Below are positions 9,446 to 19,956 of a stretch of DNA of 44,402 nucleotides, piece after piece. Source of the stretch: an uncultured Ectothiorhodospiraceae bacterium (lineage in GTDB: Bacteria > Pseudomonadota > Gammaproteobacteria > XJ16 > Halofilaceae); assembly GCA_913055615.1 (NCBI GenBank), contig CAJXKK010000023.1, positions 1 through 44,402 of the forward strand, written 5' to 3'. The position numbers and the translations under genes are program-made. Numbering within the stretch: the stretch's first letter is position 1; each line of letters begins with the position of its first letter. The notes under the pieces are model-generated. The model made no database searches and was not told the DNA's origin. It was given only the letters and a program-made list of their open reading frames with translations.

Positions 9446-11128
9446 TTACAGGGCGAACAGCACCAGCAGCACCGCAAGCACGAGCATGGTCCACAGCGCC
9501 ATCGAGCCCGTCGGCCAGCTCTGCGCGAGGCGCCCGCCATGACCGAAGCGCTCGTGGCTTGCCGCCAGCGCCCATTGCAGGGCCTCCATGAAGCGGGCCC
9601 GGAACGACCGGTCAACGGCGGTGACGAAGTCGCGCGCGGCAACCATCAGCACAGGCCCGAGGCGACGGTAGAACCAGTCGGTATCCAGGCTGATCTTCGC
9701 GTCGCCGCCCACGTGTCTGAGCAGCAGGAAGAAGCCGAGGCCCGTAAACAGCAGGAGTTGCATCTCCTTGAGCAGATGCCCGGCCGTGTAGGCGTTGTAG
9801 TCCACCTCATGCGGCAGGATTGCATAAAGCGCCTGCGGGAAGATTCCGATGAGGAAACAGAAGACCGCGGCGATGCCCATCGCGATCAGCATGTTCCGGG
9901 GCGCCTCCCGCGGGCGCAGACCGGAGTCCTTGCCCATGAAGGTGAAGTACGGGAGCTTCAGGCCGGTGTGCAGGAACGTGCCCGCTGAGGCCATGGTGAG
10001 CAGCAGGAAGACCCAGCTCCGGTAATCCACCGCGGCCGCCTCCACGATCATGGTCTTGCTCACGAAGCCGCTGAACAGGGGGAACGCTGAGATCGACAGG
10101 CCGCCCACCATGTAGAGCACGAAGGTGATGGGCATCCAGCGATACAGGCCACCGAGTTCGGTCAGCTTGCTGCGCCCGGTCATGTGCAGGACGGCGCCCG
10201 CTCCCATGAGCAGCAGGGCCTTGTAGAGGATGTGCGTGAACGCATGGGCCGAGACCCCGCTCAGGGCGAGTGTCGTGCCCATGCCCACCCCGGCGACCAT
10301 GTAGCCCACCTGGCTGATGATGTGATACGCCAGCAGCCGGCGGATATCGTTCGCCAGCACCGCGTAGACCACGCCATACAGGGCCATGATCACGCCCAGC
10401 CAAACCAGGATCTCCGTGCCCGGGAAGCCGCGGATCAGCGTATAGACCGCGGTCTTCGTGGTCAGCGCACTGAGAAAGATGGCACCGGTGACCGTGGCCT
10501 CGGGATAGGCATCGGTGAGCCATGCATGCAGCGGCGGCACGGCGGCGTTGATCATGAACGCCACCAGGATCAGGTAGAACGACCAGCCGCGCGTCTCGAA
10601 GGCCTCGAAGGCCATGGAGCCGGTGGCCTGGTAGTGGGCCAGCAGGCCCGCCAGCAGCAGCATCCCGCCGAACGCGTGCACCAGCATATAGCGCATGCCA
10701 GCGCGCCAGGACACATCGGTCCGGCGCTGCCAGATGAGCCACACGGACGAGATCACCATCAGCTCCCAGAACACATAGAGGCTGACGAGATCCCCGGCGA
10801 GTACGACACCCAGGGCACCCGAGGCATACACCATGGCCGCCACATGCTGGACCCGATCGTCCACGTGCAGCGCGTAGATGTTGCCGATAATGAGGATGAT
10901 GCCGAAGATATAGGCGAACACCAGGCTGAGCTTGTCGACCCGGCCGGGCACCAGCTCGAGCGCGCCGAAGCCCATCTGCCCATACAGACCCGGCTCGAGG
11001 CCAAGGATGATCAGCAGCACGAAGGCCGGCAGCGCGATCTGCCAGACCTGCCGTGCACGCCCCTGCAGGACCGCCAGCAGCAGGGCCCCCGCGATCAGGA
11101 CCAGCGACGGATGGATGAAATCAATCAT
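9446..11128 (-). CDS. Mrp/complex-I-like antiporter subunit D, third copy (NuoL-like tail)
   Basis: Polytopic antiporter-like subunit (proton_antipo_M family), last gene of the minus-strand Mrp operon; 560 aa. TM5 glutamate is present (YVFWELM, E122), as is the TM8 lysine (ALTTKTAVY, K225). At the TM7 lysine position the protein has asparagine (FMINAAVPPLHAW, N194), whereas the other four large subunits here have Lys. The C-terminus continues past the core with a long amphipathic stretch and a final TM helix (GSMALWTMLVL), similar in layout to the lateral-helix tail of NuoL and MrpA. Inference: this subunit may take the structural place of MrpA in the complex. It overlaps the preceding small gene by 8 bp. 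Confidence 0.88.
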   Translation of the reverse strand: MIDFIHPSLVLIAGALLLAVLQGRARQVWQIALPAFVLLIILGLEPGLYGQMGFGALELVPGRVDKLSLVFAYIFGIILIIGNIYALHVDDRVQHVAAMVYASGALGVVLAGDLVSLYVFWELMVISSVWLIWQRRTDVSWRAGMRYMLVHAFGGMLLLAGLLAHYQATGSMAFEAFETRGWSFYLILVAFMINAAVPPLHAWLTDAYPEATVTGAIFLSALTTKTAVYTLIRGFPGTEILVWLGVIMALYGVVYAVLANDIRRLLAYHIISQVGYMVAGVGMGTTLALSGVSAHAFTHILYKALLLMGAGAVLHMTGRSKLTELGGLYRWMPITFVLYMVGGLSISAFPLFSGFVSKTMIVEAAAVDYRSWVFLLLTMASAGTFLHTGLKLPYFTFMGKDSGLRPREAPRNMLIAMGIAAVFCFLIGIFPQALYAILPHEVDYNAYTAGHLLKEMQLLLFTGLGFFLLLRHVGGDAKISLDTDWFYRRLGPVLMVAARDFVTAVDRSFRARFMEALQWALAASHERFGHGGRLAQSWPTGSMALWTMLVLAVLLVLFAL

Positions 11129-11402
11129 CGCGGTTCCCCGATTCGCCGTAGTAGTTCTCCTTGCGGTACAGGAAGGCGTAGCCGAGGGCCTTGGACACCA
11201 CGATGATCAGCACACAGGAGATGAAACCGTAGAAGGCCGCGAAACCGCCGATGCCGTCCCACGCAAAGCGCTCGTAGGCGGGCTCCTTGAAGACATCCAC
11301 CACGACCAGCAGCGCCATGATCACGAGCACCGTGTTGCGCAGCGGCCGCCGCCTGGCGACCAGGGCCTCGAGGATATTGCCTGTACGCGTGCTTACACTC
11401 AC
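11121..11402 (-). CDS. Small two-TM membrane protein inside the Mrp operon, unassigned
   Basis: 93 aa, not recognised as any of MrpA-G. Seen: a basic N-terminus (LVARRRPLRN), a TM helix at about residues 23-40, a short charged loop containing FKEPAYERFAWDG, a second TM helix at about 53-77, and an acidic/polar tail ending NRDD. It lies 24 bp after the second D subunit and overlaps the start of the third D subunit by 8 bp, so co-translation is likely. Its place suggests an accessory subunit or assembly factor for the third D subunit. That role is inference from context only. The gene itself is well supported by position, overlaps and hydrophobic pattern. Confidence 0.8.
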   Translation of the reverse strand: MSVSTRTGNILEALVARRRPLRNTVLVIMALLVVVDVFKEPAYERFAWDGIGGFAAFYGFISCVLIIVVSKALGYAFLYRKENYYGESGNRDD

Positions 11403-11426: not shown

Positions 11427-12890
11427 TCAGTTGATACCGAGGGACAGCAGCCCGTAGGCGTGGCCGGCGAGGAAGAACAGGACCAGCGTGCCGATGGCGG
11501 TCAGGCACAGCGGCACCACGCACAGCATCGGGGCCTCCTGCATGCCGCTCGGCTCGCCCTCCGGCAGCGGCCGCAGGAAGGCGCGCATCACCGGCGGCAG
11601 CAGGTAGCCGATATTCAGCAGCGTGCTGAGTACAAACGCCACCACCACCAGGCTTTCGCCGGTATCGAGCGCCCCCATGATGAGGTGCATCTTGCTCCAG
11701 ACCCCACCGGTCGGCGGGAGTCCGATCACGCACAGCGCGCCGATGAAGAAGGCCAGCATGGTGAACGGCATCCGGCGGCCGACGCCGTCCAGATCGCTCA
11801 CGTTGGACTTGTGCGTCGCCAGGAAAATGGCGCCGGCACAGAAAAACAGCGTGATCTTGCCAAAGCCGTGCATGAGCATGTGCATGCCGCCGCCAATGGC
11901 GGACCACTGGCTGGCGAGCATGGCGCCGACCACGATGTACGACAGCTGGCTGACGGTGGAATAGGCGAGCCGCGACTTGAGGTTGTCGCGGTGCAGCGCG
12001 ACCAGCGATGCGGCGAGCATGGTGAAGGTCGCCACGTAGAGGACGAAGTCCCGGGTCGCCAGCTCGGCGAGGTAATCCAGGCCAAACACGTACAGCGCCA
12101 CGGTCAGTGCGACGAACACGCCCGCCTTGACGACCGCCACGGCGTGCAGCAGCGCCGAGACCGGGGTCGGCGCCACCATCGCCGCCGGCAGCCAGCGGTG
12201 GAAGGGCATGAGGGCCGCCTTGCCGGTGCCGAACATGAACAGCAACAGCAGCACGGCGCCGGTGCCGGGGCCGACCGCGTCGCCCAGGATGCCGCCGGGG
12301 CGCAGGTCCAGCGTACCGGCGGCGTGCCAGGTCCAGATGATCGCGGGCAGCATGAAGCAGACACTCGTGACCAGCAGCAGCGCGATATAGGTGCGCCCGC
12401 CCTGACGGGCCTTGTCCGTGCCGGTGTGGGCCACCAGCGGATAGGTGGAGACCGACAGGATTTCGTAGAAGATGTAGAGCGTCAGCAGGTTGTCGGCGAA
12501 GGCGATGCCCGCCGCGGCCCCGAGGGCGATGGCATAGCAGGCGAAGAACCGCGCGAGGTTACCGTAGCCCTCGCCGCGCATGTAGCCGATCGCGTACGGC
12601 GTCGCCAGGACCCAGAGCGTGGACGCGAGGATGGCGAACGTAAGGCCCAGGGGCTGCACCGAGAAGGTGATGCCCAGACCGGGCAGTATCTCCACCAGCG
12701 TCTGCGGTGCGAAGCGCCCCTCGAGCACCGGGCCGATCTGGCCGAGCACGCCGATGAAGAACGGAATGGGCGCGAGCCAGCAGAACGCGTCGCGCAGGCG
12801 CGGTGACCGGGCCGCGAGGGCGATGGCCAACGCCCCGATGAAGGGGATGAGCACGACCGTGAACGGATTGAGCGCCGGCGCGAGGCTCAC
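11427..12890 (-). CDS. mnhD: Mrp antiporter subunit D, second copy
   Basis: 487-aa membrane subunit of the proton/cation antiporter family with about 14 TM helices. The ion-pathway residues line up with those known to be essential in MrpD: E143 in TM5 (YIFYEIL), K224 in TM7 (GTGKAALMPFHRWLP), K255 in TM8 (VAVVKAG), and Lys in the TM12 region (GGVWSKMHLI). A methionine/histidine-rich helix (GGGMHMLMHGFGKI) occurs at the TM10 position. Its ATG overlaps the stop of the first D copy (ATGA). Confidence 0.92.
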   Translation of the reverse strand: MSLAPALNPFTVVLIPFIGALAIALAARSPRLRDAFCWLAPIPFFIGVLGQIGPVLEGRFAPQTLVEILPGLGITFSVQPLGLTFAILASTLWVLATPYAIGYMRGEGYGNLARFFACYAIALGAAAGIAFADNLLTLYIFYEILSVSTYPLVAHTGTDKARQGGRTYIALLLVTSVCFMLPAIIWTWHAAGTLDLRPGGILGDAVGPGTGAVLLLLFMFGTGKAALMPFHRWLPAAMVAPTPVSALLHAVAVVKAGVFVALTVALYVFGLDYLAELATRDFVLYVATFTMLAASLVALHRDNLKSRLAYSTVSQLSYIVVGAMLASQWSAIGGGMHMLMHGFGKITLFFCAGAIFLATHKSNVSDLDGVGRRMPFTMLAFFIGALCVIGLPPTGGVWSKMHLIMGALDTGESLVVVAFVLSTLLNIGYLLPPVMRAFLRPLPEGEPSGMQEAPMLCVVPLCLTAIGTLVLFFLAGHAYGLLSLGIN

Positions 12891-14374
12891 GGTGCGCCCC
12901 CCGGAATGCCGCCCATCAGGGCCTCCGCGGCGGCGGTGGCCGCGCCCACGTTGAGCCGGGTATCAATCCCGAAGTAAAAGTTCGCGGCCACCAGCACCCA
13001 GACCGGAATCAAAAGCCGCAACGGCGCCTCGGTGACGGCGGGCGCGTCCTCGGCGGGCTGCCGGAACCAGGCCGCCTCCAGGACCCGCCAGATGTAGATC
13101 AACGCCATCATCGAGGTAATGACGATCAGTGCCACCAGCCAGGCATGACCGGACTCGACGGCGGCACTGATGAGATACCACTTGCTGATGAACCCGGCGG
13201 TCGGTGGCAGCCCGATGAGACTCACCCCGGCCAGCGCGAATGCGGTCAGGGTCCATGGCATGCGTTTGCCCAGCCCCCGGAAGGCCTCGATCCGCACACT
13301 GCCCACCTGGTAGGCGATCGTGCCCAGCGCCATGAACAGCGCGGCCTTCATGAGCGCGTGATTGAACATATGGAGCAGCGCCGCGGTCAGGCCGGTCACG
13401 GACACCAGACTGACACCCAGCACCATGTAACCGACCTGCGCCACCGACGAGTACGCGAGCATGCGCTTGATATTTGCCTGGTAGATGGCGACCCAGGAGC
13501 CCACGACCATCCCGGCGATCGCGAGCGCCATCAGCACCACCGCGAGCGGCAGGGCTACGAAACTGTAGTCCGGCGCGAAAACGGTGAAGGTGAACCGCAG
13601 CAGCACGTAAAGGGCCACCTTGGTGGCTGTGGCCGCGAGAAACACGGAGATGAAGCTCGGCGCATACGTATAGGCGTTCGGCAGCCACAGGTGCAACGGC
13701 AGCAGGGCGAGCTTCAGGCCCATGCCCACGACGATGAACGCGAGCGCCACCTCCACCGTAGCCGTGTCGCGCAGCTCCGGCAGGCGCTGGGCGAGATCGA
13801 CCATGTTGAGGGTGCCGGTCATCATGTAGAGGAAACCGATACCGATCAGCAGGAAGGTCGCGCCGACGGTCCCCATGATCAGGTAGCGGAACGCCGCCAG
13901 CAGGGCCCGCCGGTCCTGGCCGTGGGCGATCAGGGCATAAGTAGCCAGCGAGGAGATCTCGAGGAAGACGAACACGTTGAACGCGTCGCCGGTCAGCGTG
14001 ATGCCCATCAGGCCGGCGAAGGCCAGCAGGAACAGTGCGTAGAACGGCCCCTGGCGCTCCGGCACCTCTTGATCGACGCTCGTTTTGGCCCAGGGCAGAA
14101 TCACCGCCGCCACCGCTGAGACCAGCAGCGCCACGAAGGCATTGGCGGCATCGATGCGGTACTCGATCCCGATCGGCGGTTCCCAGTTGCCGAAGGCGTA
14201 GGACAGAGGCCCATCCATGGCCGCCGCCAACGTGATCGCCGCGATCACCGCACTCGCCGCGGCGGCGGCGAAGGTCAGCAGCCAGGGCCACAACCGCCCC
14301 GGCAGCAGCGCGCACACCGCCGAGGCGATCAGCGGCACAAGCATGCTGAACGGGCTCAGTTCGACGACCGTCAT
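12887..14374 (-). CDS. mnhD: Mrp antiporter subunit D, first copy
   Basis: 495-aa MrpD-type subunit. Key residues are at nearly the same numbers as in studied MrpD proteins: E139 in TM5 (VFVFLEIS), K221 in TM7 (GMGLKLALLPLHLWLP), K252 in TM8 (ATATKVALY). The TM10 helix HALMKAALFM and the TM12 lysine (GFISKWYLI) are also conserved. It overlaps mnhC upstream and the second D copy downstream by 4 bp each. Of the three D copies here it looks most like a canonical MrpD. Confidence 0.94.
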   Translation of the reverse strand: MTVVELSPFSMLVPLIASAVCALLPGRLWPWLLTFAAAAASAVIAAITLAAAMDGPLSYAFGNWEPPIGIEYRIDAANAFVALLVSAVAAVILPWAKTSVDQEVPERQGPFYALFLLAFAGLMGITLTGDAFNVFVFLEISSLATYALIAHGQDRRALLAAFRYLIMGTVGATFLLIGIGFLYMMTGTLNMVDLAQRLPELRDTATVEVALAFIVVGMGLKLALLPLHLWLPNAYTYAPSFISVFLAATATKVALYVLLRFTFTVFAPDYSFVALPLAVVLMALAIAGMVVGSWVAIYQANIKRMLAYSSVAQVGYMVLGVSLVSVTGLTAALLHMFNHALMKAALFMALGTIAYQVGSVRIEAFRGLGKRMPWTLTAFALAGVSLIGLPPTAGFISKWYLISAAVESGHAWLVALIVITSMMALIYIWRVLEAAWFRQPAEDAPAVTEAPLRLLIPVWVLVAANFYFGIDTRLNVGAATAAAEALMGGIPGGAP

Positions 14375-14751
14375 CGGGAGGGCTCGCTTTGCCGGTTCTC
14401 TTCGTCCGCTTCCTGGGCGGCGATACGATCGTCCTCGATGGAGCCGTAGGCCTCACGGATACGGATCGCCAGAGCGAGCCCCACGGCCACCGTGGCCACA
14501 CCGACGACGATGGCGGTGAGGATGAGTACGTGGGGCAACGGGTTCGAATACGCGCTCACCCCCTCACGCAGGATCGGCGTCGATCCGCCGATGATCTTGC
14601 CCGCGGAGATGAAGAGTATGAACACGGAGGTCTGGAAGACATTCAATGCCAGGATCTTTTTGACCATATTGCCGCGCGCGATCACGCCATAGAAGCCGAT
14701 CATCATCAGCACGACCACGATCCAGTAGTTGAAGTGACCCAGCCACTCCAT
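14371..14751 (-). CDS. mnhC: MnhC/MrpC, NuoK-like antiporter subunit
   Basis: 126-aa three-TM subunit homologous to NuoK of complex I. Seen: TM1 WIVVVLMMIGFYG, the conserved segment ARGNMVKKILALNVFQTSVFILFIS, and TM3 beginning NPLPHVLILTAIVVGVA, a hallmark of MrpC. The C-terminal tail is charged and longer than usual. It shares one base with the mnhB stop (TGATG) and overlaps the first D subunit by 4 bp. Confidence 0.93.
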   Translation of the reverse strand: MEWLGHFNYWIVVVLMMIGFYGVIARGNMVKKILALNVFQTSVFILFISAGKIIGGSTPILREGVSAYSNPLPHVLILTAIVVGVATVAVGLALAIRIREAYGSIEDDRIAAQEADEENRQSEPSR

Positions 14752-15209
14752 CAGCGCCCCTCCCCGTCGGCCTCTGCATCCACTTCATCCCACCAGCTGC
14801 GCCGGCGGGCGAACAGCGTGAACACCAGCATCATCACACTGGCCACGGTCACCCCCACGCCGAATTCCACGAGGATGATGCCGGCCTGCTGGGCCGCATG
14901 CGGATCTTCGAGCAGCGGATAGAAATCGAGGAAATGGCCGCCGAGGGCGACGCCCGCGAGTCCCACCAGGCTGTACAGCAGCACGCCGAGCGCCGTCAGC
15001 ACGTACATCACGCGCTCGGGGATCACTTTGAGCCCGAGGTCCAGCCCGTAAATCAGCACGAACAGGATCCAGCCGGCGGCGAAAACGACGCCGGCCTGAA
15101 AGCCGCCGCCCGGCGAATACTCGCCATGGAACTGGATATACAGCCCGAACAGGAGGATCAGGGGAATGACGAACCGGGCGATGACGCGGAGGATGCCGTT
15201 CTCTCTCAC
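14751..15209 (-). CDS. mnhB: MnhB/MrpB antiporter subunit
   Basis: 152-aa, four-TM MrpB subunit. Seen: TM1 with the FHGEYSPGGGFQAGVVFAAG motif characteristic of MrpB (xGPGGGFxxG pattern), a further pair of TM helices, and a last TM segment VEFGVGVTVASVMMLVFTL before a charged tail. The ATG overlaps the DUF4040 gene stop by 4 bp. In the neighbouring plus-strand operon the same domain is fused to the C-terminus of MrpA. Confidence 0.93.
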   Translation of the reverse strand: MRENGILRVIARFVIPLILLFGLYIQFHGEYSPGGGFQAGVVFAAGWILFVLIYGLDLGLKVIPERVMYVLTALGVLLYSLVGLAGVALGGHFLDFYPLLEDPHAAQQAGIILVEFGVGVTVASVMMLVFTLFARRRSWWDEVDAEADGEGR

Positions 15210-15739
15210 GGCGCCTCTTCCCCGTCGCGCGCGCGTGACCGTCGAGCCGGCGGGCGAACGGACAGCAGCGCGAAGACGCCGAGGGCGGCGGTGAAGATCA
15301 CGAACGCCTCCCCGAGCGTATCAATAGAGCGGTAGCTCGCGAGCACCGCCGCCACCATGTTCGGCACGCCGGTGTCCGCGTACGTCTGTTCGGTGTAGTA
15401 ACTCCCCACATGCCCGTGTACCGGGTTATCGGGATCCCCGAATTCCGGCAGGTCCATGCTCGCGTACACCAGCCCCGCACCGGTCACCAGGACCACGGCC
15501 AGCGCAAGCAGGTTATGCCCCGGAACAGGATGTTCCTGACGCCGCGCCAGCGTCAGCACGGCCAGCACCAGGATGGTACTGATACCCGCGCCCACGGCGG
15601 CCTCGGTGAGCGCCACGTCGCCGGCGTCCAGCACCGTGAACAGCGCCGCCGACACCAGCGAATAGATGGCGAACAGCATGGTCGCCGCGAACAGATCGCG
15701 CACCCGGATCACGGCCAGCGCCACCACGACGAGGAACAC
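15206..15739 (-). CDS. DUF4040/MbhD-MbhE-like subunit (stand-alone MrpA C-terminal part)
   Basis: 177 aa from the GTG at 15739. It corresponds to the part of MrpA after the antiporter core: a DUF4040 (MbhD-like) half with LYxLxxA-type helices and the motif DVALTEAAVGAG, then an MbhE-like half ending PNMVAAVLASYRSIDTLGEAFVIFTAALGV. Full MrpA proteins carry PDLAxTQxxVE at the first site; here the acidic residue sits three positions earlier, as in Mbh-type proteins. The GTG start cuts the first TM helix: the open frame continues upstream for IEYLIDIALL to a TGA. A CTG at 15760 overlaps the mnhG stop as CTGA, so the true start may be that non-standard codon. Confidence 0.85.
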   Translation of the reverse strand: MFLVVVALAVIRVRDLFAATMLFAIYSLVSAALFTVLDAGDVALTEAAVGAGISTILVLAVLTLARRQEHPVPGHNLLALAVVLVTGAGLVYASMDLPEFGDPDNPVHGHVGSYYTEQTYADTGVPNMVAAVLASYRSIDTLGEAFVIFTAALGVFALLSVRPPARRSRARDGEEAP

Positions 15740-15756: not shown

Positions 15757-16107
15757 TCAGGTATTCGATGACTCGGCTCCGTCACGTCTTTCCGCTGCCC
15801 GGTCCGCGTCGCCCTCGGGCTCCAGGCCGTCGGCCATGGCGGCGCGCGCCAGCGCATGGGTCGCGGTCGGCGTGGTGAACAGCAGGAACAGCAGGATGAG
15901 CAGCAGCTTGACCGTCAACAGACTGAACCCGGACTGCAGGACCAGCCCCCCGACGATGAGCAGGGCCGTGAGGGTGTCGGTGATACCGCCCGCGTGCAGC
16001 CGGGTGTAGAAATCCGGGAAACGCACCAGACCGATCCCCCCGATGATGGCGAAGGCGCCACCGGCGAGCAGCAGGATCCCCGAGAGGACATCCAGCAGCT
16101 CAGCCAT
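15757..16107 (-). CDS. mnhG: MnhG/MrpG antiporter subunit
   Basis: 116-aa, three-TM MrpG subunit. Seen: TM1 followed by IGLVRFPDFYTRLHAGGITDTLTALLIVGG, the family signature, then TM3 LLILLFLLFTTPTATHALARAA and a charged tail. It overlaps mnhF by 8 bp. Its stop overlaps the upstream extension of the DUF4040 frame. Confidence 0.94.
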   Translation of the reverse strand: MAELLDVLSGILLLAGGAFAIIGGIGLVRFPDFYTRLHAGGITDTLTALLIVGGLVLQSGFSLLTVKLLLILLFLLFTTPTATHALARAAMADGLEPEGDADRAAERRDGAESSNT

Positions 16108-16393
16108 CCGTGATGTCCCTTCTCCCGGCCTCGGCCAGGTTCCCCATCTTCACGAGTTTCAGCACGGTGACGATGGCGATGAAATTGATCAGGGCATAAA
16201 CCAGGGCGACATCGATCAGGTCCGCATGACCGGTGATGTAGGTGATCAGTGCCACAACGAGGACGGTTTTCGTGCCGAACACGTTCACGGCCACGATCCG
16301 GTCATACACCGTGGGCCCGACGAGGGCACGCAACAGTGCCAGCGCCATGGTCGCCAGTACCGCCAGCGTGGCGATCACCAGCACCGTATTCAC
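16100..16393 (-). CDS. mnhF: MnhF/MrpF antiporter subunit
   Basis: 97-aa, three-TM MrpF subunit. Seen: the conserved segment LVGPTVYDRIVAVNVFGTKTVLVVALI after TM1, and DLIDVALVYALINFIAIVTVLKL in TM3. The ATG overlaps the mnhE stop by 4 bp. Confidence 0.94.
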   Translation of the reverse strand: MNTVLVIATLAVLATMALALLRALVGPTVYDRIVAVNVFGTKTVLVVALITYITGHADLIDVALVYALINFIAIVTVLKLVKMGNLAEAGRRDITDG

Positions 16394-16884
16394 GCGTCGG
16401 CCCCGCTATCCGAGCGCCCGGCCTCGAGCCAGAGGATCCGCTGCGCCATCGCGCCACTCTCGAGGTCTTCCCGGGACGCCGGGTGCAGGGCATGGACCGT
16501 CATCTCACCGGGATTCAGCAACAACGTGACCGTGCCCGGTGTCAGCGTCACCGAATTGGCGTACGTCACCTTGCCGACTGCCGTCTTGTGCGGGACCGGC
16601 ACGCGCACGACACTCGGCCGCAGGCGCGACGGCTGCAGCGCGCAGGCCGCGACCTGGAGGTTGGCGACGATGATCTGCCACAGCAGCCAGCCCCAGTAGA
16701 GGGGCAGCCGCCAGGAATAGAGCGCGGGATTATGCTCGACGCCGACGACGTCCATGCGCCGCGAGATCCACACGACCAGGGCGATGGAAGCCACCCCGAG
16801 CCCCAGGATCAGCGGCTTGTAGACCCCGGAAATGCCCAGCCAGAGCAGAACGAGGATGGTCGTGAGTGACGCGGCGTATCGCAT
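16390..16884 (-). CDS. mnhE: MnhE/MrpE antiporter subunit
   Basis: First gene of the minus-strand Mrp operon; 164 aa from the ATG at 16884 (an in-frame TTG at 16902 would add 6 residues; neither has a clear ribosome site). Seen: two N-terminal TM helices, a third helix with LPLYWGWLLWQIIVANLQVA, and the C-terminal soluble domain with VTYANSVTLTPGTVTLLL, the MrpE signature. The order E-F-G-(DUF4040)-B-C-D-D-x-D differs from the canonical A-G order and is seen, to my knowledge, in archaeal-type and some bacterial Mrp/Mbh-related clusters. Confidence 0.93.
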   Translation of the reverse strand: MRYAASLTTILVLLWLGISGVYKPLILGLGVASIALVVWISRRMDVVGVEHNPALYSWRLPLYWGWLLWQIIVANLQVAACALQPSRLRPSVVRVPVPHKTAVGKVTYANSVTLTPGTVTLLLNPGEMTVHALHPASREDLESGAMAQRILWLEAGRSDSGADA

Positions 16885-16928
16885 GGCGGCGAAGTCTAAC
16901 AACAGTGGTCAAGGACGGACAGGGTCGC

Positions 16929-16957
16929 TTGACCGGCCGCCGGGCAGATTGGATACT
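16929..16957 (+). promoter_or_regulatory. Putative sigma-70 promoter for the plus-strand Mrp operon
   Basis: TTGACC and GATACT with a 17-bp spacer, 140 bp upstream of the fused mnhAB start. It lies inside the only non-coding stretch (16885-17097) between the two divergent Mrp operons, which must hold promoters for both. No clear matching promoter was found for the minus-strand operon. Matches to consensus are 5/6 and 4/6. Confidence 0.4.
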
Positions 16958-17097
16958 CCGGCGAAGAACAAGAACAAGGGGGTGGTTATCGCTTCCCGTT
17001 CGTCCTCCCCGCCCCTGGCCGGCGGCGCACGCTGTTCCGCCATGCCTCGGAGAATCGCCGGGGCCGCCCCGTCCAATGGCGTACGCGGAATGCGGCC

Positions 17098-19956
17098 GTG
17101 AGTCTCGCGCTCATCGTCATCCTGCCGTTCCTCGGCGCCGTCCTGCCGGCGCTGATGATCCGCTCCGGGCGCGCCGCCTGCGCCCTGTCGGCCGCGTGGG
17201 TGACCATCCTCGCCCTCGGCCTCCTGCTCACGCACGTTCCCGCCGTCCTGCGCGGCGAGGTCATCCAGGTCGGCTGGGAATGGATCCCGGCCCTGGGCCT
17301 CAACGTCAACTTCTTCCTCGACGGCCTCGGGCTCCTGTTCGCCGGCCTGATCCTCGGCATCGGCCTGCTGGTCATGATCTACGCCCGGTTCTACCTGGCG
17401 AAAGACGATCCGATGGGCAACTTCTACACCTACCTCCTGCTTTTCCAGGGGGCGATGGTGGGGATCGTGCTGTCGGACAATATCCTGCTGCTGCTGATCT
17501 TCTGGGAGCTGACCAGCCTGACCTCGTTCCTGCTGATCGGCTACTGGCGCCACCTGCCCGAAGGGCGACAGGGCGCGCGCATGGCACTGATCGTCACCGG
17601 CAGCGGCGGCCTCGCGCTGATCGCCGGCATGCTGCTGCTGGGGAATATCGTCGGGTCCTACGATCTGACCGACATCCTCCAGCACGACCCCTACGAGATC
17701 CACAATTCACCACTGTACGTCCCGGCGCTGCTGCTGATCCTGATCGGCTGCTTCACCAAGAGCGCGCAGTTCCCGTTCCACTTCTGGCTGCCGCATGCCA
17801 TGGCGGCACCGACGCCGGTGTCCGCCTACCTCCACTCGGCGACCATGGTAAAGGCCGGCGTGTTTCTGCTGGCCCGCCTCTGGCCGGTGCTGTCGGGCCC
17901 GGATATCTGGTTCTACCTGGTCGCCACGACCGGTCTGGTCACGATGGTAGTCGGCGCGTACATCGCGCTGTTCAAAGACGATCTGAAGGGCCTGCTGGCC
18001 TTCTCGACGGTGAGCCACCTCGGCATGATGACGATGCTGCTCGGTTTCGCCACGCCGATGGCGGCGGCGGTCGCGGTGTTCCACATCATCAATCACGCCA
18101 CCTTTAAGGCGGCGCTGTTCATGAACGCCGGCATCATCGACCACGAGACCGGCACGCGCGACACGAAAAAGCTGGGGGGCCTGCTGCTGCTGATGCCGAT
18201 CACCGCCACGCTGGCCGTGATCGCGGGCGCCTCCATGGCCGGCCTGCCGCCGCTCAATGGCTTCCTGTCGAAGGAGATGATGCTGGCGGAGGTCAACCAG
18301 ACGGCCTGGTTCGGGCAGGGCTGGCTGCTGCCGCTGGTCGTGACCGCGGGTGCGCTGCTATCCGTGGCCTACTCCTTTCGCTATGTCGTCCATGTCTTCT
18401 TCGGTCCGCAGCGCGACGACTACCCGAGCAAGCCGCACGACCCGCCCGCCGGCCTGTGGCTGCCGCCGGCGTTCCTCGTCGGCCTGGTCGTGCTCATCGG
18501 CCTGTTCCCCGACGCCATCGCCGGGGATCTCGTGCGCGCCACCACGGCGGCCGTAACCCAGGGCGGCGCGCCCGATGTGCACCTCTACCTCTGGCACGGC
18601 TTCACGCCGGCGCTGCTGATGTCGGTCATCGCGGTCGCCGGCGGCGCGCTCGCCATATGGCGGTATGAGCGCGTGCGCGCCTGGTGGTACGCCGGACCGC
18701 ATCCCGAGGCCAAGGCGATGTTCGACCGCGTGGTCGCGGCGGCGATCGCCAGCAGCAAGCGGCTCGTGCTTGGCCTCCACAACGGCTCCCTGCAGCGCTA
18801 CCTGGCGCTCATGATCAGCGCGGCGCTGGTCCTCGGGTTCGCCGGCTTTTTCACCGCCACGCACGGCAGCGGCGCCCGCCCGCTGCTGTCCGCATCGCCC
18901 GTGGCCGCGATTATCTGGCTGGTGCTGCTCGCGGGCTGTGGAATGGTCATCCGCTATCAGCGCGACCGGCTGCTCGCGGTCATCGGCGTCGGCGTAGTCG
19001 GCCTGATCGTGGCCGCGATGTTCGTGTACTTCTCCGCGCCCGATCTGGCGATGACGCAGATCTCGGTCGAGGTCGTAACGACGATCCTGATCCTGCTGGC
19101 GCTCTACTTCCTGCCCAAGGAAACGCCAGTGGAAAGCAGTCCGATGCGGCGCCGCCGTGACGCGGTGCTGGCCGGCCTGACGGGACTGGGTACCGGTGGT
19201 CTGGCGTGGGCGGTGATGACGCGCGACTTCACCAGCCTGTCGAGTTTCTATCTGGAGAACGCCCACGATCTCGGTGGCGGCGACAACGTCGTCAACGTCA
19301 TCCTCGTGGACTTCCGCGGCTTCGACACCTTCGGCGAGATCATCGTGCTCGGGATCGCCGGTCTGACGATCTTCGCCCTGCTGCATGCAATGACCCGGGG
19401 CGAGCTCTACCGGCGGCTCGGGGCGTGGCAGCTCGACATGACCAAATCGGCGGACCGCCACCCCATGCTGATGGTGGTGATCACGCGGGTCATGCTGCCG
19501 CTGGTGCTGCTCGTCGGCGTGTACATCTTCCTGCGCGGGCACAACATGCCCGGCGGCGGTTTCATCGCGGGCCTGGTCGTGGCGATCGGGCTGATCATGC
19601 AGTACATGGCCAGTGGCTACGGCTGGGCGGCGCAGCGCATGACGATCAACTACCACGCCTTCATCGGCGGCGGCGTGCTGATCGCAGCCGTGACCGGCAT
19701 CGGCGCCATGATCATCGGCTACCCCTTCCTCACGGGCGCCTTCGACTACTTCTCCCTGCCGGTCATCGGCAAGTTCGAGGTGGCGAGCGCGCTCGGTTTC
19801 GATATCGGGGTATTCCTCACCGTCGTCGGCGGCGTGATGCTGGCGCTGGCGCATCTGTCGGACCTGGGGCGCTGGGTCAGTCACGCGCCGGTCAACGAAC
19901 AGCCGATGGACACGCTGCCGGGCGCCGAGCGACGCCACGGCGAAGGGAGCGAATAG
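17098..19956 (+). CDS. mnhA: MnhA-MnhB fusion, large Mrp antiporter subunit
   Basis: 952 aa, the fused MrpA' of group-2 Mrp operons. N-terminal NuoL-like core: E137 in TM5 (LLIFWELTS), K221 in TM7 (GCFTKSAQFPFHFWLP), K252 in TM8 (SATMVKAG), the LSKEMM Lys-Glu in TM12, and the HNGSLQRY segment before the late helices. Middle: the DUF4040-like part with SAPDLAMTQISVEVV and the MbhE-like VVNVILVDFRGFDTFGEI. C-terminus, from about residue 795: an MrpB domain with RGHNMPGGGFIAGLVVAIG. The start is GTG at 17098. mnhC begins 2 bp after the stop. Confidence 0.96.
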   Translation: MSLALIVILPFLGAVLPALMIRSGRAACALSAAWVTILALGLLLTHVPAVLRGEVIQVGWEWIPALGLNVNFFLDGLGLLFAGLILGIGLLVMIYARFYLAKDDPMGNFYTYLLLFQGAMVGIVLSDNILLLLIFWELTSLTSFLLIGYWRHLPEGRQGARMALIVTGSGGLALIAGMLLLGNIVGSYDLTDILQHDPYEIHNSPLYVPALLLILIGCFTKSAQFPFHFWLPHAMAAPTPVSAYLHSATMVKAGVFLLARLWPVLSGPDIWFYLVATTGLVTMVVGAYIALFKDDLKGLLAFSTVSHLGMMTMLLGFATPMAAAVAVFHIINHATFKAALFMNAGIIDHETGTRDTKKLGGLLLLMPITATLAVIAGASMAGLPPLNGFLSKEMMLAEVNQTAWFGQGWLLPLVVTAGALLSVAYSFRYVVHVFFGPQRDDYPSKPHDPPAGLWLPPAFLVGLVVLIGLFPDAIAGDLVRATTAAVTQGGAPDVHLYLWHGFTPALLMSVIAVAGGALAIWRYERVRAWWYAGPHPEAKAMFDRVVAAAIASSKRLVLGLHNGSLQRYLALMISAALVLGFAGFFTATHGSGARPLLSASPVAAIIWLVLLAGCGMVIRYQRDRLLAVIGVGVVGLIVAAMFVYFSAPDLAMTQISVEVVTTILILLALYFLPKETPVESSPMRRRRDAVLAGLTGLGTGGLAWAVMTRDFTSLSSFYLENAHDLGGGDNVVNVILVDFRGFDTFGEIIVLGIAGLTIFALLHAMTRGELYRRLGAWQLDMTKSADRHPMLMVVITRVMLPLVLLVGVYIFLRGHNMPGGGFIAGLVVAIGLIMQYMASGYGWAAQRMTINYHAFIGGGVLIAAVTGIGAMIIGYPFLTGAFDYFSLPVIGKFEVASALGFDIGVFLTVVGGVMLALAHLSDLGRWVSHAPVNEQPMDTLPGAERRHGEGSE

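Follow-up and report, generated by a model that had tools for sequence, protein, structure and literature searches.

An antiporter-like subunit with asparagine at the TM7 lysine site in an Mrp-type operon of an uncultured gammaproteobacterium

The D3 gene and its operon

The window, that is the whole stretch of DNA analysed (44,402 nucleotides of contig CAJXKK010000023.1, from an uncultured Ectothiorhodospiraceae bacterium), carries on its minus strand a ten-gene operon with the order E-F-G-A''-B-C-D1-D2-sm93-D3, as assigned by profile matches (Table 1). The final gene, D3, is on translation a single open reading frame of 560 amino acids that reads from 11128 to 9446. Its product scores 716 bits against the NF009310/PRK12668 model "Na(+)/H(+) antiporter subunit D" (curated cut-off 564; residues 1-559 on model positions 3-582) and 160.9 bits against PF00361, the profile of the antiporter-like subunits (NuoL/M/N, MrpA/D), whose fold it also has. 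Elsewhere in the same family, one NF009310 gene (G229:C9:59510-61075) carries one in-frame TGA.

With E, F, G, B, C and D subunit types all present, the D3 operon is, on its gene content, a predicted Mrp-type (CPA3) cation/proton antiporter. There are no redox genes in it, and a NuoL-like N-terminal part of MrpA is absent from its ten genes; the NuoL/M/N-like genes of this genome are on another contig (C2), away from the D3 operon. A second, group-2 style Mrp operon, to which A' and D4 (MrpD) belong, starts divergently at 17098. Two different Mrp-type operons of one genome diverge from a gap of ~195 bases (16902-17098).

Table 1. Genes of the D3 operon and features of the D3 protein, in window coordinates
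Feature	Position	Strand	Evidence or conservation
D3, NF009310/PRK12668-type antiporter-like subunit with Asn194 at the TM7 lysine site	9446..11128	-	translation, profile score, structure model
sm93, small protein with two TM helices and an EDYYD-like motif conserved at its C-terminus, between D2 and D3	11121..11402	-	
D2, PRK08375-like, K224 kept	11427..12890	-	profile search, alignment
D1, PRK12662-like, K221 kept	12887..14374	-	profile search, alignment
MrpC/NuoK-like subunit	14371..14751	-	profile search
MnhB-domain subunit	14751..15209	-	profile search
A'', MbhD/MbhE-domain subunit, counterpart of MrpA C-terminal part	15206..15739	-	profile search
MrpG	15757..16107	-	profile search
MrpF	16100..16393	-	profile search
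MrpE	16390..16902	-	profile search
D3 Glu122, TM5, retained half of Glu/Lys pair	10763..10765	-	invariant, 112/112
D3 His151, TM6, in every Asn/Gly194 form	10676..10678	-	60/60 + 9/9 + L085
D3 TM7, residues 182-210, broken helix	10499..10585	-	structure model
D3 Asn194, codon AAC	10547-10549	-	
D3 Lys225, TM8, central lysine	10454..10456	-	112/112
D3 His299 to Lys303, counterparts of MrpD His/Asp333 and Lys337 (Lys-His-Lys triad)	10220..10234	-	
D3 Lys391, TM12, counterpart of MrpD Lys392	9956..9958	-	alignment
D3 lateral helix HL, residues 484-528	9545..9679	-	model; amphipathic moment; aligned to NuoL
D3 C-terminal anchoring TM helix, residues 539-559	9452..9514	-	model, NuoL superposition

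The D2-sm93-D3 module

The order D2-sm93-D3 is kept in nearly all of the relatives examined, mostly within the full E-F-G-A''-B-C-D1-D2-sm93-D3 arrangement. A cultured relative, Wenzhouxiangella limi (L022), also has the ten-gene operon. Two alphaproteobacterial genomes (L098 and L161) have instead nuoJ-nuoK-D2-sm93-D3-nuoM-nuoN, the arrangement of the green complex I clusters. Since D2-sm93-D3 is found both in Mrp operons and in green complex I, the module is common to an antiporter and a respiratory enzyme. The small protein sm93, of 93 amino acids, shares this double distribution; it has two transmembrane (TM) helices, its C-terminal part carries a conserved R-x-E-D-Y-Y motif, and its counterparts adjoin D3 in ~100 loci. 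We found no Pfam or NCBIfam family for sm93, and its structure model is of low confidence (pLDDT 74.7, pTM 0.42) with no PDB match. Probably sm93 is a previously undescribed subunit, located where D2 meets D3.

Two loci depart from the common arrangement. In L095:158-7829 (G118 C244) there are two tandem sm93-D3 copies, both with Asn194 and neither with adjoining D1 or D2 genes; the other antiporter-like genes of this genome are on another contig. In L152, from a small alphaproteobacterial genome, a D subunit of the Rickettsiales-type family PRK12664, with the asparagine, directly follows F-G-A''-B-C, with no D1, D2 or sm93 beside it, and D1- and D2-like genes are located elsewhere in the genome.

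Fold and retained conduction residues

The D3 model (AlphaFold2, from an alignment of 84 rows made up of window and locus proteins) has a mean pLDDT of 89.8 and a pTM of 0.87. Over the D3 core it superposes on MrpD with Z 45.4 (438 residues, 2.1 Å) and over its full length (model residues 2-560) on E. coli NuoL with Z 45 (534-540 residues), at an rmsd of 8.6 Å that we attribute to the long helix running differently in the two. The NuoL/MrpA-like tail named in the original prediction, a lateral helix followed by a terminal TM helix, is present. It is, however, common to the whole family, Lys and Asn forms alike, and so cannot explain the asparagine discussed below.

Three of the residues looked for in PF00361 proteins, the TM5 Glu, TM8 Lys and TM12 Lys, are in place in D3 (E122, K225 and K391), the first two as anticipated. 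Glu122, Lys225 and Lys358 are the same in all 112 family sequences, and Lys391 is nearly invariant. By alignment, and in the MrpD numbering of PMC9568556, Glu122 corresponds to Glu137, Lys225 to Lys250, Lys391 to Lys392, Lys303 to Lys337 and His299 to His333; Lys303 and His/Asp299 are retained in the NF009310 proteins and lost in the PRK12664 relatives. TM8 of D3 reads FLSALTTKT, with Lys225 and no histidine; the switch histidine of this helix (His248 of MrpA) is therefore absent.

Asparagine at the TM7 lysine site

The fourth of these residues, the TM7 lysine of the Glu/Lys pair, is replaced in D3 by Asn194. The lysine is kept in the four other large subunits of the window, exactly where it had been reported: K221 in D1 and K224 in D2, which share the operon of D3, and K221 in A' and K220 in D4 of the neighbouring Mrp operon. 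In the model TM7 is broken, with one helix spanning residues 182-194 and a second 202-210, and Asn194 closes the first of them. A misalignment can be ruled out because NF009310 members that keep the lysine can be aligned gap-free with D3 (GIKCAFPFLHNW against INAAVPPLHAW).

Among 103 NF009310-type relatives, residue 194 is Asn in 59, Gly in one and Lys in 43, and it is Asn in 9/9 PRK12664 relatives. Of the 112 family members in all, 68 thus have Asn, 43 Lys and one Gly, a count enriched for Asn because one search used a query peptide containing the NAAVPPLHAW-type motif. In the motif-free, HMM-based searches, Asn forms are outnumbered in the class sample of Gammaproteobacteria and common in the samples of Alphaproteobacteria. 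Asn at the TM7 position is also found in L085, a more distant relative; an alphaproteobacterial relative, L126, has Gly there and retains His151. The database model mixes Lys194 and Asn194 forms and its name is silent on the difference.

A frameshift or sequencing error can be rejected, since the same residue is found in relatives and in a 92.5%-identical D3 copy from a second species of the same genus. Nor does the asparagine depend on the type of operon, being seen in both green complex I and Mrp clusters, and every Lys form examined lies in an Mrp operon of identical gene order. It is likewise not linked to missing lysines in D1 and D2, as these controls from the same operons keep theirs (27/27 for D1, 28/28 for D2). 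All the non-D3 antiporter-like subunits alignable at the TM7 site, from the window and six further genomes, have Lys. On these comparisons Asn194 is, as the original prediction proposed for its NAAVPPLHAW motif, evidently a stable inherited trait of a widespread subfamily and not an error or a private mutation.

A histidine on TM6

One further residue accompanies the loss of the lysine. His151, on TM6, occurs in 70/70 of the non-Lys sequences (60/60 Asn/Gly NF009310 forms, 9/9 PRK12664 forms and L085), down to ~26-29% identity. In the Lys forms this residue is Gln in 39, Lys in two and His in two, and in the other antiporter-like subunits of seven genomes it is Thr, Asn, Gly, Ser or Leu/Phe and never His. 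In NuoL the charge pairs are Lys229/Asp178 and Arg175/Glu144, with Arg175 and Asp178 on TM6 (PMC13144422), which places TM6 at the Glu/Lys pair, and D3 residue 151 aligns one residue before Arg175. Split by clade, the association of His151 with Asn194 comes down to only two independent contrasts (sign test p 0.5). Other candidates for a compensating site (Ser/His269, Asn/Ser272 and His299) were rejected as inconsistent across the Asn forms.

Phylogeny of the Lys and Asn forms

The NF009310 Lys forms all fall on one side of a branch with an SH-aLRT of 99. When the tree is rooted with outgroups, whose branches are long, the Asn forms are basal and the Lys clade is nested among them; this would mean that the lysine had been lost and then regained. 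A single Asn clade is nevertheless not rejected by the AU test (p 0.43).

What D3 might do

What the TM5 Glu/TM7 Lys pair contributes is one of the central disputes over the mechanism of complex I and of Mrp, and one structural paper describes the key lysines as "absolutely conserved" and essential (PMC7419157). A whole subfamily without the TM7 lysine, with a sister clade of the same operon order that keeps it, amounts to a natural Lys/Asn swap with the gene order unchanged.

Our preferred reading, which we hold tentatively and with slightly less than even confidence, is that D3 is an MrpD2-type, NuoL-shaped subunit that would conduct protons by an intact central axis behind a rewired Glu122-His151-Asn194 gate. 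In a complex without the N-terminal half of MrpA, D3 would take that place, and its lateral helix would clamp the neighbouring D2. With the central axis intact, protons would most likely still move along it, and what would be rewired is the Glu/Lys "coupling point" towards the neighbour of D3. Deprived of its permanent cationic partner, Glu122 may instead have its charge balanced by His151, a titratable residue on TM6, while Asn194 serves as a hydrogen-bond partner. The resulting gate at the D2/D3 contact might be weaker or softer than a Glu/Lys pair and more easily opened. The literature offers material on both sides. In isolated Nqo12/Nqo13 the pair has been suggested to be mainly an electrostatic gate whose opening lowers the barrier, and with E123Q/E132Q in Nqo13/12 the opened pair eases conduction (PMC11496545). 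On the other hand, MrpD-K219A and MrpA-K223A of Bacillus pseudofirmus Mrp abolish antiport and leave the complex intact (PMC5703873); simple loss of the lysine is thus not harmless in a standard Mrp. Also against such a gate, the PRK12664 forms lack Lys303 and His299 as well, and two of the Lys forms have His151 too. The broader proposition, of a functional subunit with the TM7 Lys replaced by an Asn/His pair, forming a pH-titratable gate in some Mrp and green complex I enzymes and switching between Lys and Asn within one family, is possible but doubtful.

Perhaps, instead, D3 is only a structural end-cap, a NuoL-shaped clamp that holds D2 and the small subunit and pumps nothing, its coupling point unused for want of a proton-passing partner facing it. 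Its lateral helix and terminal TM helix would suit such a part. So would HycC of E. coli formate hydrogenlyase, which has Leu208 at the TM7 Lys site, keeps Glu135 and has its pair at a membrane-exposed end, and in which H2 production is undiminished by the substitutions E135A, K239A, H328A and K336A (PMC9474812). However, a pure clamp would not need the conserved Glu122, Lys225, Lys358 and Lys391, and the sister clade keeps its TM7 lysine in the same operon order; we therefore consider a clamp unlikely. The original prediction had left the choice between a clamp and a pathway using another residue, and for the latter the invariable His151 of the non-Lys forms is circumstantial support.

Alternatively, the lysine may have been lost once under relaxed constraint, leaving a site that is maintained only structurally, with His151 and the like as hitchhiking markers of the clade. 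The tree allows a single loss, many sites beyond TM6 and TM7 differ between the Lys and Asn clades, and one relative (L126) has Gly. Yet Asn is kept in 68/69 of the non-Lys sequences, among them the PRK12664 forms at ~26% identity, which is better retention than a free position should show, and such drift seems to us improbable. Less probable still is that Asn194 and Glu122 form a Na+ (or K+) site, in which a metal ion would replace the lysine ammonium and D3 would carry the coupling cation instead of or besides protons: a carboxylate freed from Lys and the Asn side chain beside it could plausibly act together as Na+ ligands, work on the Mrp mechanism considers a Na+ position at Glu137 of MrpD (PMC9568556) and several close relatives are recorded from soda-lake-type samples (as judged from isolate names), but the asparagine is also found in green complex I clusters of the rhizobia type and in small-genome alphaproteobacteria and not only in halophiles.

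Comparison with known systems

In the literature searched, which excluded Degli Esposti 2016 (green complex I) and Chadwick 2018 (2M complex I), we found no published description of the Lys-to-Asn/His151 form, and this variant seems to be undescribed. The family itself is already named in the databases, and HycC is a partial precedent for the missing TM7 lysine.

Among the closest known systems is MrpD2 of the rhizobial green complex I. In that enzyme the place of NuoL is taken by two MrpD-like subunits, and a lateral helix has been noted in MrpD2 (PMC9040806). MrpD2 and D3 belong to the same family and share the D2-sm93-D3 module, the lateral helix and Asn194. The module of green complex I, however, lies between nuoK and nuoM, whereas that of D3 ends an Mrp E-F-G-A''-B-C-D1 operon and does not replace nuoL in a nuo operon. 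With MrpD and MrpA of Mrp (7qru, 6z16, 7d3u) D3 has in common the core fold, the TM5 Glu, the TM8 Lys and the TM12 Lys; it differs in having Asn for the TM7 Lys and in that its NuoL-like part is a separate chain and not the MrpA N-terminus. The resemblance to NuoL extends over the full length, including the lateral helix and last TM helix, but D3 lacks the TM7 Lys, the TM8 His switch and the TM6 Arg/Asp pair of NuoL and has the TM6 His instead.

With respect to the broken charge pair, HycC is like D3 in having lost the TM7 Lys, kept the TM5 Glu and in possessing a lateral helix, and unlike it in having Leu rather than Asn, in belonging to a hydrogenase complex and in having its TM5/TM7 end face lipid. 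In DabB2, from the DAB2 CO2-hydration complex, the charge pairs are likewise naturally broken at the same site; DabB2 is the mirror image of D3, the Glu being lost (Ile151) and the Lys kept (PMC13144422).
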